Shown here: positions 44,999 through 48,274 of the stretch, piece by piece
Numbering within the stretch: the first letter of the stretch is position 1
Layout of the letters: every line of letters begins with the position of its first letter
NCBI RefSeq assembly: GCF_003627815.1
Contig: NZ_CP032698.1
Location: 4,588,001 to 4,652,000, forward strand
DNA length: 64,000 bases
DNA from: Streptomyces hundungensis
GTDB taxonomy: Bacteria > Actinomycetota > Actinomycetes > Streptomycetales > Streptomycetaceae
Direction: 5' to 3'
Position numbers and translations under genes: made by a program
Notes under the pieces: generated by a model
Told to the model about the DNA's origin: nothing
The model's input: the letters and a program-made list of their open reading frames with translations, nothing else
Database searches by the model: none

Positions 44999-46279
44999 GT
45001 GGGCCTTGTCGTGCAGAAGTACGGAGGCTCCTCCGTTGCCGATGCCGAGGGCATCAAGCGCGTCGCCAAGCGGATCGTGGAAGCCAAGAAGAACGGCCAC
45101 CAGGTGGTCGTCGTGGTTTCCGCGATGGGCGACACGACGGATGAGTTGATCGAGCTCGCGGAGCAGGTGTCTCCCATGCCTGCCGGGCGGGAGTTCGACA
45201 TGCTGCTGACCGCCGGAGAGCGGATCTCCATGGCGCTGCTCGCCATGGCGATCAAAAGCCTGGGCCACCAGGCCCAGTCGTTCACGGGCAGCCAGGCCGG
45301 TGTCATCACCGACTCGGTCCACAACAAGGCGCGGATCATCGACGTCACCCCCGGCCGCATCCGGACCTCGATCGACGAGGGCAACATCGCCATCGTCGCC
45401 GGGTTCCAGGGCGTCAGCCAGGAGGGGAAGAACATCACCACGCTGGGGCGCGGTGGTTCGGACACGACGGCCGTCGCGCTCGCGGCCGCCCTCGACGCCG
45501 AGGTCTGCGAGATCTACACCGACGTCGACGGCGTCTTCACCGCCGACCCCCGCGTCGTGAAGAAGGCGAAGAAGATCGAGTGGATCTCCTTCGAGGACAT
45601 GCTGGAGCTGGCCGCGTCCGGCTCCAAGGTGCTGCTGCACCGGTGCGTCGAGTACGCCCGCCGTTACAACATCCCGATCCATGTGCGGTCGTCCTTCAGC
45701 GGACTTCAGGGCACCTGGGTCAGCAACGAACCACGTTCCCAGTCGGAGGGTCAGCAGGTGGAGCACGCCATCATCTCCGGAGTCGCCCACGACGTCTCCG
45801 AGGCGAAGGTCACGGTCGTCGGAGTGCCCGACAAGCCGGGCGAGGCCGCGGCGATCTTCCGCACCATCGCGGACGCCGAGATCAACATCGACATGGTGGT
45901 GCAGAACGTCTCCGCCGCGTCGACGGGCCTCACCGACATCTCGTTCACGCTGCCCAAGGCCGAGGGCCGCAAGGCCATCGACGCCCTGGAGCGCTCCAAG
46001 CCGACCATCGGCTTCGAGTCGCTGCGCTACGACGACCAGATCGCCAAGATCTCCCTGGTCGGCGCGGGCATGAAGACCAACCCCGGCGTCACGGCGGGCT
46101 TCTTCGAGGCGCTCTCGGACGCGGGCGTCAACATCGAGCTCATCTCGACCTCCGAGATCCGCATCTCGGTGGTCACCCGCGCCGATGACGTCAACAACGC
46201 CGTGCGCGCCGTGCACTCCGCCTTCGGCCTCGACTCCGACAGCGACGAGGCCGTCGTCTACGGAGGCACCGGGCGATGA
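44999..46279 (+). CDS. lysC: Aspartokinase (alpha subunit)
   Basis: A 426-residue enzyme phosphorylating aspartate at the entry of the lysine, threonine, methionine and diaminopimelate pathways. [20 protein letters not shown] at residues 4-23 is the KYGGSS nucleotide site, followed by [40 protein letters not shown] near 148 and [15 protein letters not shown] near 172-186. Two ACT domains (about 265-420) bind feedback effectors. GTG start with TAGGAG upstream. The 3' part contains a second start for a separate beta subunit, as in Corynebacterium. Overlaps the asd-like gene by 4 bp (ATGA). Confidence 0.95.
45745..45750 (+). promoter_or_regulatory. Internal ribosome site for the aspartokinase beta subunit
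   Basis: GGAGGG lies 7 nt before an in-frame GTG at 45758 (residue 254). This is the position where the C. glutamicum beta subunit begins. Confidence 0.7.
45758..46279 (+). CDS. lysC: Aspartokinase beta subunit (internal in-frame start)
   Basis: A 173-residue product equal to the C-terminal ACT-domain part of LysC, starting [22 protein letters not shown]. In corynebacteria the alpha2beta2 aspartokinase uses exactly such an overlapping beta subunit to form the lysine/threonine feedback site. The in-frame GTG and well-placed GGAGGG support the same design here; this is inferred from family knowledge plus the ribosome site. Confidence 0.7.
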
Positions 46280-47334
46280 CCCCCAGACCGGCGCTCACGG
46301 TCGTCGGAGCGACCGGGGGCGCCGGTGCGGTGATGCTCCAGATCCTGACCCAGCACGCGGATGTCTGGGGCGAGGTGCGCCTCGTCGCGTCCGCGCGCTC
46401 GGCCGGACGCAAGTTGCTGGTGCGGGGCGCGGAGTGCGAGGTGCTCGCGCTCGGCGAGGAGGCCCTGGAAGGGGCCGACGTCGTCGTCTTCCTCGTGCCC
46501 GCCGAGGTCGCCGCCCGGTGGGCGCCGGTCGCGGCCGCCAAGGGCGCGGTGGTGGTGGACAGTTCCGCCGCCTTCCGGATGGACCCCGACGTGCCGCTCG
46601 TGGTGCCCGAGCTCAATCCCCATGCCGTACGGATGCGTCCGCGCGGCATCGTCGCGAGCCCGCACGCCACCACCCTCGCCATGAGCGTGGCCGTCGGCGC
46701 GCTGCACGCCGAGTTCTGCCTGAGCGAGCTGGTCGTGTCGACCTATCAGGCCGCCAGTGGGGAGGGGCAGCCCGGAGTCGAGGCGCTGCGCCGGCAGGTC
46801 TCGCTGGTGGCCGGCACCCAGCTCGGCACCAACCCGGGCGATGTGCGCCGGGCCGTCGGCGACGAGCTCGGCCCCTTCCCCGCGCCCCTCGCCCTGAACG
46901 TGGTGCCCTGGACCGGGGAGCTCGCCGACGACGGCTGGTCCTCGCAGGAGCTGGGCATCCGCGACGAGCTGCGCAAGGTGCTCGGCCTGCCGCGCCTTCC
47001 GGTCTCCGCCACCTGTGTCCGGGTCCCCGTGGTGACCACGCACTCGGCCTCCGTGCACGCGCGCTTCGAGAACGAGGTGGAGGTGGCGCGGGCCCACGAG
47101 ATCCTGGCGACCGCCCCGGGCGTGGTGCTCTTCGACAACCCGGCGGTCGGCGAGTTCCCGACCCCCGCGGACGTGGTGGGCACCGACCCCACCTGGGTCG
47201 GCCGGGTGCGCCGTTCGCCGGACGATCCGCGCGTACTGGAACTTTTCGTCTGCGGCGACAACCTCCGCAAGGGCACGGCCCTGAACGCGGCCCACATCGC
47301 CGAGTTGGCGGCCCGCGAATTCAACGGGCGCTGA
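46276..47334 (+). CDS. Aspartate-semialdehyde dehydrogenase-like protein lacking the catalytic Cys
   Basis: A 352-residue member of the ASADH family. The N-terminal Rossmann motif [16 protein letters not shown] and the later [21 protein letters not shown] (substrate Gln), [19 protein letters not shown] (catalytic-site Arg and His) and [13 protein letters not shown] are all present. The motif that carries the nucleophile in the family (NPNCTT type) reads [10 protein letters not shown] here, so the cysteine is Ala131. Without it the usual thioester mechanism cannot run. It is coupled to lysC by an ATGA overlap, the normal asd position, so it may be a pseudo-enzyme or a changed paralogue, with a true Asd encoded elsewhere. 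Confidence 0.85.
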
Positions 47335-47602: not shown

Positions 47603-48274
47603 GTGGCAGAGGTACTCGAGTTCAGAGCGGTACCGGTGCGCGGCGGCATGGCGGTCCGCCCGCGTCGGCGCCCCGGCGCACCCGGTGGCATGCCGGTGAT
47701 CGCGCCCATGCCCGCCCCCCGTACGGTCCGCCCACCCGCGCAGGCGACCTCGCGCGAGAGCGCTGACGAGGTCATGGCGGCCGGCACCACTGTTGATCAC
47801 CTCACCGAGACCTACCGCGCGCACTACCGCTCGCTGCTCGGCCTCGCGGCGCTGCTCCTGGACGACATCGCTTCCTGCGAGGACGTCGTGCAGGAGGCGT
47901 TCATCCGGGTCCACTCGGCGCGCAGCCGCGTGCGCGAACCCGAGAAGACCCTCGCCTACCTCCGCCAGACGGTGGTCAACCTCTCCCGCTCCGCGCTGCG
48001 CCGGCGCATCCTCGGGCTCAAGCTGCTCTCCAAGCCGATGCCCGACATGGCGAGCGCCGAGGAGGGCGCGTACGACCAGTTGGAGCGCGACGCGCTCATC
48101 AAGGCGATGCGCGGACTCCAGCGCCGCCAGCGCGAGGTGCTGGTGCTGCGCTACTTCGCCGACATGACCGAGGCCCAGGTCGCCGAGACGCTCGGCATAT
48201 CCCTGGGCTCGGTCAAGGCGTACGGATCGCGCGGCATAGCCGCCCTGCGCGTCGCCATGGAGGCGACGGCGTGA
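47603..48274 (+). CDS. RNA polymerase sigma-70 family (ECF-like) sigma factor
   Basis: A 223-residue sigma factor. After a 60-residue Pro/Arg-rich extension, region 2 reads YRAHYRSLLGLAALLLDDIASCEDVVQEAFIRVHSA (about 70-105) and region 4 reads AMRGLQRRQREVLVLRYFADMTEAQVAETLGISLGSVKAYGSRGIAALR (about 165-215). This is the SigE-like ECF layout of actinobacteria. The start is uncertain: the strong GGGGAGGAAC site at 47579-47588 suits an out-of-frame GTG at 47590, while third-position GC supports this frame from 47603; ATG 47774 begins the core. Coupled by a GTGA overlap to the next gene. Confidence 0.82.
   Translation: MAEVLEFRAVPVRGGMAVRPRRRPGAPGGMPVIAPMPAPRTVRPPAQATSRESADEVMAAGTTVDHLTETYRAHYRSLLGLAALLLDDIASCEDVVQEAFIRVHSARSRVREPEKTLAYLRQTVVNLSRSALRRRILGLKLLSKPMPDMASAEEGAYDQLERDALIKAMRGLQRRQREVLVLRYFADMTEAQVAETLGISLGSVKAYGSRGIAALRVAMEATA

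Follow-up and report, generated by a model that had tools for sequence, protein, structure and literature searches.

A lysC-linked aspartate-semialdehyde dehydrogenase-like gene without its catalytic cysteine in Streptomyces hundungensis, a putative pseudoenzyme with eroded relatives in the genus

The lysC locus and the altered active site

Within the aspartate pathway, which serves lysine and threonine synthesis, aspartate-semialdehyde dehydrogenase (ASADH) is both essential and a drug target. In the window, the whole 64,000-nucleotide stretch of S. hundungensis DNA analysed here, an asd-like gene follows the aspartokinase gene lysC (Table 1), which is the sole match of its kind in the genome at E ≤ 1e-60. 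A sequence-only reading had described the gene as an intact frame coupled to lysC, and this agrees with the 352-residue ORF and with the overlap of its ATG and the lysC stop codon by 4 nt, an arrangement consistent with translational coupling. Downstream, at 47603-48274 (+), lies a gene for a SigE-family ECF sigma factor (TIGR02983, 186.5 bits against a cut-off of 141.6).

Table 1. Genes and active-site positions at the locus, with counts from the 141 lysC-linked copies of the genus set (Mtb, M. tuberculosis)
Feature	Position	Strand	Basis or count
lysC, aspartokinase, 426 aa, GTG start	44999..46279	+	ORF and translation
ATGA, lysC stop/asd-like start overlap, 4 nt	46276..46279	+	sequence; translational coupling inferred
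asd-like gene (pseudo-ASADH) without catalytic Cys, 352 aa, ATG start	46276..47334	+	ORF, profile matches
Arg101 (Mtb Arg99, phosphate site), kept	46576..46578	+	141/141 genus set
SPHATT replacing NPNCTT, residues 128-133; Ala131 codon GCC at 46666-46668	46657..46674	+	alignment to 3TZ6
Gln158 (Mtb Gln157), kept	46747..46749	+	138/141 genus set
Gln224 replacing amino-group-binding Glu (Mtb Glu224)	46945..46947	+	Glu retained in 118/141
Gly227 replacing phosphate-site Lys (Mtb Lys227)	46954..46956	+	Lys retained in 77/141
Arg249, carboxylate-binding, kept in window copy	47020..47022	+	107/141 genus set
His256, acid-base His, kept	47041..47043	+	140/141 genus set

Alignment to the M. tuberculosis enzyme (3TZ6) bore out the central claim of that reading, namely that Ala131 occupies the place of the Cys nucleophile and that both flanking Asn residues are changed as well, Asn128 to Ser and Asn130 to His. 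The remaining active-site residues that it had listed as present, together with Arg101 and the Rossmann GATGxxG motif, are likewise retained, and three further changes had been missed: Gln stands for Glu224, Gly for Lys227, and Ser at position 96, which is Asn in intact copies. The phosphate-site trio of Arg, Asn and Lys is incomplete, with only the Arg kept.

The roles of these residues were taken from the accessible text of PMC3276109 and PMC8648042, the latter reporting docking in which R99, K227, E224, R249, N94, N129, C130, T131 and Q157 surround the M. tuberculosis ligand site. Table 1 of PMC3276109 gives the activities of H. influenzae ASADH mutants relative to wild type as <0.01% for C136S, 1.2% for E243D, 3.3% for K246R, 0.1% for R270K, 1.0% for H277N and 0.4% for R103K, so that even conservative changes of the Glu and the Lys cost approximately 80- and 30-fold, respectively. 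Because of these mutant activities, the ASADH reaction is not expected to proceed at a useful rate in the window protein, in which formation of the acyl-enzyme would be abolished by the absence of Cys131, with Asn130, Lys227 and the amino-group Glu gone too. Structure prediction for the window protein from 21 close relatives gave a poor model, with a mean pLDDT of 62 and residues 98-131 below 50, which was set aside.

A sequencing or assembly error at the Cys codon was ruled out, since neighbours that are 89-100% identical to the window protein are also without Cys. The motif was SPHATT or SPHAST in 8/8 of the closest database proteins read (P0002-P0005 and P0007-P0010, P0006 being unread), and the six nearest named genomes were all Cys-less, S. 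violascens having Pro and the other five Ala.

Family models place the window protein within the ASADH family over its whole length, with 93.8 bits to PF01118 and 139.4 bits to PF02774 (cut-off 26), and it passes the NF011456 equivalog model (355 bits, cut-off 223), as does the E. coli paralogue Usg (292 bits). The asd_B model TIGR01296, with a cut-off of 324.2 bits, is reached neither by the window protein (311.1) nor by the S. clavuligerus copy (299.7), and is passed by an intact relative of the lysC-linked type, P0082 (381), and by a second, distal Asd of S. hundungensis (412). Compared with the bacterial enzyme represented by 3TZ6, the window protein is alike in full-length homology, both Pfam domains, GATGxxG, the four residues Arg101, Gln158, Arg249 and His256, and the position of its gene after aspartokinase, but differs in the lost Cys, Asn130 and Lys227, the Gln for Glu224 and the score below the asd_B cut-off.

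A second Asd and the erosion of linked copies

The sequence-only reading had anticipated a true Asd elsewhere, and a search of the 8,393,044-base contig at E ≤ 0.01 found exactly one other asd, at 5640518-5641516 (-), 1.0 Mb away and unlinked to the window lysC. Its product, which shares family and genome with the window protein, has the canonical NPNCTT and is intact at every other residue checked; it is 47% identical to the window protein and of the M. tuberculosis type, scoring 442 bits to 3TZ6 vs 237 for the window protein. Extra asd genes in Streptomyces are already known, since ASADH is listed in PMC5801464 (Schniete and others) among the enzyme functions expanded in the genus; in the accessible text of that paper only two of the listed expansions stem from duplication, and ASADH is not one of them.

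To place the window copy among its relatives, 159 genomes of the genus were sampled, of which 157 gave data (the incomplete G001 and G050 gave none). They contained 141 linked copies, 139 found by threshold plus two with inserts (G127 and G100), and the alignment of one of the 141, L207, begins at residue 41. For loci with flanks the linkage to lysC was read directly, and for gene-only stretches it was assigned by sequence type. No asd was found beside lysC in 14/157 genomes within the 1.5 kb searched (less in one short contig), and the frame of the linked copy was disrupted in two more (G005 and G119). Thus, the linked gene is dispensable over evolution. The two disrupted copies (L222 and L221) yet retain SPNCTT, and the disruption may be a real loss or an assembly error.

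The comparison of streptomycete lysC-linked genes for C131A, which the sequence-only reading had proposed as a check, showed that this state is not universal in Streptomyces: Cys was kept in 130/141 linked copies and replaced in 11, by Asp in six, Ala in two (the window copy and L205), Ser in two and Thr in one. Over all loci read, the replacements were of six kinds (Ala, Asp, Gly, Pro, Ser and Thr). Erosion of the site as a whole was much more widespread, with 70/141 copies lacking at least one of Cys131, Asn130, Glu224 and Lys227. Lys227 was lost in 64, Asn128 in 58, Asn130 in 53, Arg249 in 34 and Glu224 in 23, and at the other extreme Arg101 and Pro129 were kept in all 141, His256 in 140, Gly11 and Gly14 in 140 (the other being a gap) and Gln158 in 138. 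Asn130 and Lys227 were gone from all 11 Cys-less copies, which indicates that the nucleophile tends to go last. The aligned frame was unbroken in each of these 11, and the single stop (L122) lay at the C-terminal end. In L097 (Streptomyces sp. 150FB; SPCSLT) a Cys stands one residue before the lost nucleophile, and in L004 (G006; CPGDTT) three residues before it. A FastTree phylogeny from which the motif columns were left out, with 179 rows (6 distal, 22 family-set, 141 genus and 10 named rows added as Cys-less), requires at least 7 changes in the presence of Cys and at least 10 in the residue itself, several inner branches being weakly supported.

These data also bear on whether the linked protein could be a working ASADH that uses another residue, which we regard as exceedingly improbable. 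His256, Arg249, Arg101 and Gln158 are retained in the window protein, and the ask-asd genes of S. clavuligerus, where the copy found has Asp for Cys, were reportedly cloned and heterologously expressed by Tunca in 2004. Against this stand the concurrent loss of Asn130 and Lys227 in every Cys-less genus copy and the H. influenzae values of PMC3276109 for the Cys, Glu and Lys mutants given above.

An intact distal Asd was present in 11/11 genus genomes with a Cys-less linked copy and also in the 14 genomes without a linked copy, where the distal type is the sole type, and 29/29 distal copies read were intact at every residue checked. One genome without a linked copy, G121, carries two equal-score distal-type asd genes back to back in opposite orientation (C140:564361-566414), possibly an assembly fold. 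For the 51 genomes of the family outside the genus, with asd types assigned by match identity, 14 had the lysC-linked type alone, 18 had the distal type alone and 19 had both. A first family set of 22 rows (21 from outside the genus and L245 from within it) was intact throughout, but its choice favoured loci that resemble the query most closely; of 12 additional family loci, seven were eroded, two of them Cys-less. The latter two, L306 (G204; SPASTT) and L311 (G161; GPRGTT), lie beside lysC in family members outside the genus, and L307-L310 (G192, G196, G199 and G205), also from outside the genus, have APRCAT together with Leu for Gln158. Erosion therefore extends beyond Streptomyces.

The linked genes of genomes with a single asd were all intact (15/15; 14 in the family and G008 in the genus), while in genomes with two copies 39/73 were eroded (7/19 in the family and 32/54 in the genus) and 8/73, including the window copy, were Cys-less. 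At the level of the class, 26/26 loci read, these being 26 among the best 30 matches and biased toward those most like the query, were intact and, like the window gene, beside lysC, and 25 of them were the only asd of their genome at E ≤ 1e-40. Erosion in one-copy genomes read was thus 0/15 for the family and 0/25 for the class. The association of a second copy with erosion in the family gave a Fisher p of 7e-5 with kinship ignored; just five phylogenetically independent pairs were available, which gives no power, and none ran in the opposite direction. Taken together, the distribution suggests that catalysis was abandoned repeatedly where a second Asd is present, with the protein retained.

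The same distribution weighs on a different proposal, that the linked protein is a dead subunit of a mixed ASADH oligomer that tunes or stabilises the distal Asd. The Asd dimerisation domain PF02774 would permit such an arrangement, and the dead paralogues of trypanosomatid AdoMet decarboxylase and deoxyhypusine synthase, so far as the accessible literature describes them, offer a precedent, but linked and distal copies are just 47% identical and the distal type occurs alone in 14 genus genomes and in 18/51 genomes of the rest of the family. We consider a mixed oligomer quite unlikely.

Selection on Cys-less copies and the Cys-to-Asp clade

Selection was estimated with a codon model (GY+F3X4) in IQ-TREE, using the lysC of matching loci as a linked control gene. 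Omega was 0.073 for the Ala/Pro clade around the window (7 Cys-less sequences) and 0.058 for the Asp clade (7 sequences), and for three other eroded groups it was 0.064, 0.049 and 0.110, where the first and last include a few Cys-less members and the last is the GPDC group. Twelve intact genus copies (those heading the list, a non-random choice) gave 0.044, 12 family copies 0.032 and 12 distal copies 0.042. For lysC in the same loci omega ranged from 0.019 to 0.044: the genes next to the Ala clade gave 0.019, those next to the Asp clade 0.028 and those next to the intact genus copies 0.044. Fixing omega at 1 was worse by 213 (Ala), 488 (Asp) and 424 (GPDC) log-likelihood units, with kappa fixed at 2, and the claim that the gene is maintained without its Cys is in this respect supported. 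Constraint is relaxed, however, since omega in the Ala clade is approximately four times that of the adjoining lysC, whereas the intact copies equal theirs. Constraint thus persists on the dead versions, but is weaker than on the adjacent lysC.

At 204 positions at least 97% of 149 intact rows share one residue, and the Ala clade keeps that residue, scored as its commonest, at 185 of them; the 19 departures include 96, 130, 131, 224 and 227. In a scan for relaxed sites, which is circular at 130, 131, 224, 227 and 249, the positions defining the eroded class, 96 (21 changes vs 1) and 132 (10 vs 0) stood out, and 235, 76 and 213 were flagged among sites with no recognised active-site role.

For the Asp clade 77 sequences were counted, 7 from loci and 70 from database clusters, with some genes possibly represented twice. 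They are a non-random set, having come from the genus sample or from similarity to either the window protein or the S. jumonjinensis copy. Its members include S. clavuligerus, S. peucetius, S. pristinaespiralis, S. katsurahamanus and S. jumonjinensis. The antibiotic producers S. clavuligerus (P0158), S. peucetius (P0094, P0143) and S. pristinaespiralis (P0086) have proteins with Asp for Cys that are yet named aspartate-semialdehyde dehydrogenase, and in three Asp-type proteins of S. qinzhouensis and S. tsukubensis (P0168, P0170 and P0175) low-complexity inserts rich in Gly and Ala, of variable length, follow at about residue 194. Within the clade H130, D131, G227 and Q158 were each found in 76/77 sequences, E224 and R249 each in 75/77, and R101, T132 and H256 in 77/77. 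The derived residues H130, D131 and G227 showed 3 changes vs 25 expected from other derived sites of the clade (p 0.008), and nine active-site positions showed 7 changes vs 31 expected from random sites (p 0.027); compared with all sites of the clade, H130, D131 and G227 were not unusually fixed (p 0.25).

The near fixation of these residues might be read as a sign of new catalysis, in which the pocket is re-specialised, with the His-Asp of the Asp clade taking the place of Asn-Cys, for a reaction that needs no Cys thioester. The retention there of Gln158, H256 and Arg101 and the low number of changes at the nine active-site positions are in keeping with this. Outside the Asp clade, however, Cys has given way to Ala, Pro, Ser, Thr, Gly or a separate Asp with no common chemistry, and the Ala of the window protein is incapable of acting as a nucleophile, so that we find a new activity very doubtful.

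Alternatively, the linked gene may be a redundant relic, decaying since a second Asd was gained and with its loss still to come, in which case low omega would reflect slow relaxation and the cost of misfolding. The 14 genomes without the gene and the two with a disrupted frame are what such decay would leave behind, and omega exceeds that of the same-locus lysC in both Cys-less clades and, at 0.110, is highest in the GPDC clade. This explanation is nevertheless rather unlikely. The estimates of 0.073 and 0.058 come from within all-Cys-less clades and so post-date the loss if each clade lost Cys once, the likelihood deficits of 213 and 488 units speak against omega = 1, no aligned frame is broken among the 11 Cys-less genus copies, and among the 77 sequences the derived H130-D131-G227 set has come close to fixation. 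Omega and these fixed residues weigh against free pseudogene decay, which is retained here as a rival. Selection still appears to keep the altered gene, and it probably has another role.

Putative roles and known parallels

Our preferred reading, to which we give about an even chance, is that the window protein is an ASADH-dead, selectively kept pseudo-ASADH with a non-catalytic job, most likely as a non-covalent ligand-binding partner of aspartokinase. The linked copy would have been relieved of catalysis by the second, Mycobacterium-type Asd and then retained for this other job, in which, co-translated with aspartokinase, it may bind a small ligand without chemistry and so tune entry into the pathway. 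The putative ligand would be an aspartate-family amino acid, held through Arg249 and Glu/Gln224, and/or NADP(H). We place moderate to low confidence in the step that makes it a partner of aspartokinase.

A ligand-binding partner is favoured over a channelling role on account of the lysC coupling, the carboxylate Arg kept in both Cys-less clades, the conserved NADP motif and the damaged phosphate site. Of the two roles that the sequence-only reading had put forward, regulation of aspartokinase or channelling of aspartyl phosphate, the second is less likely because it is the phosphate-site residues Asn130 and Lys227 that have gone. One ligand shared by all eroded copies is doubtful, since some eroded clades kept Cys but lost Arg249 (34/141 copies are without it). 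The 4-nt overlap with lysC is no argument that Cys-less copies have a special tie to LysC: it was found in 14/17 Cys-less, 15/33 eroded but Cys-containing and 69/127 intact distinct loci, in a count for which the nearest start codon was picked by script, 9 loci were dropped and kinship was left uncorrected. In a somewhat unlikely variant, the non-catalytic role as a co-translated, ligand-sensing LysC partner would be a second function older than the catalytic loss, with the repeated losses following the gain of a second Asd and a new conserved His-Asp pocket arising in the Asp clade. Industrial producers of beta-lactams, anthracyclines and streptogramins would on this variant possess a control subunit, so far unrecognised, where the lysine/threonine pathway begins.

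Public annotation names the lysC-linked Streptomyces gene ASADH. For catalysis, this name looks wrong in a good part of the genus, where activity is likely to reside in the unlinked copy. Control of aspartokinase by the protein, if correct, would be relevant to lysine-derived antibiotics. The parallel catalytic losses in one protein also amount to a natural experiment, in which close relatives have versions that are intact, half-eroded or dead, and the origin and upkeep of a pseudoenzyme should be directly testable with such a series of linked copies. A literature search, with most subscription journals outside its reach, found no paper joining aspartate-semialdehyde dehydrogenase with pseudoenzyme and none joining it with Streptomyces and catalytic cysteine.

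Among known systems, the trypanosomatid prozyme is alike in being a catalytically dead paralogue retained beside a live enzyme, and the accessible literature describes activation of the live partner by the dead paralogue for both AdoMet decarboxylase and deoxyhypusine synthase. The prozyme differs from the window protein in fold, and for the window protein a complex is hypothetical.

Within the ASADH family itself, E. coli Usg (b2319, PRK08040) resembles the window protein as a paralogue with Ser for Cys, encoded in an operon-like row. We know of no function for Usg. It keeps the acid-base His and has Gln for Arg249, a loss shared with part of the eroded Streptomyces copies, but it is only 32% identical to the window protein and, unlike it, has Arg101 changed to Ala and Gln158 to Ile. 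Common descent with Usg was rejected on profile scores, the window protein reaching 146.6 bits against the Usg family model NF005957 (cut-off 273), to which Usg itself scores 683.5, and on this basis the Streptomyces pseudo-ASADH is an independent case, of separate origin and arising more than once. Usg is the closest precedent. The usg gene adjoins truA and pdxB, whereas the window gene adjoins lysC, and Usg is annotated as a 'putative semialdehyde dehydrogenase'.
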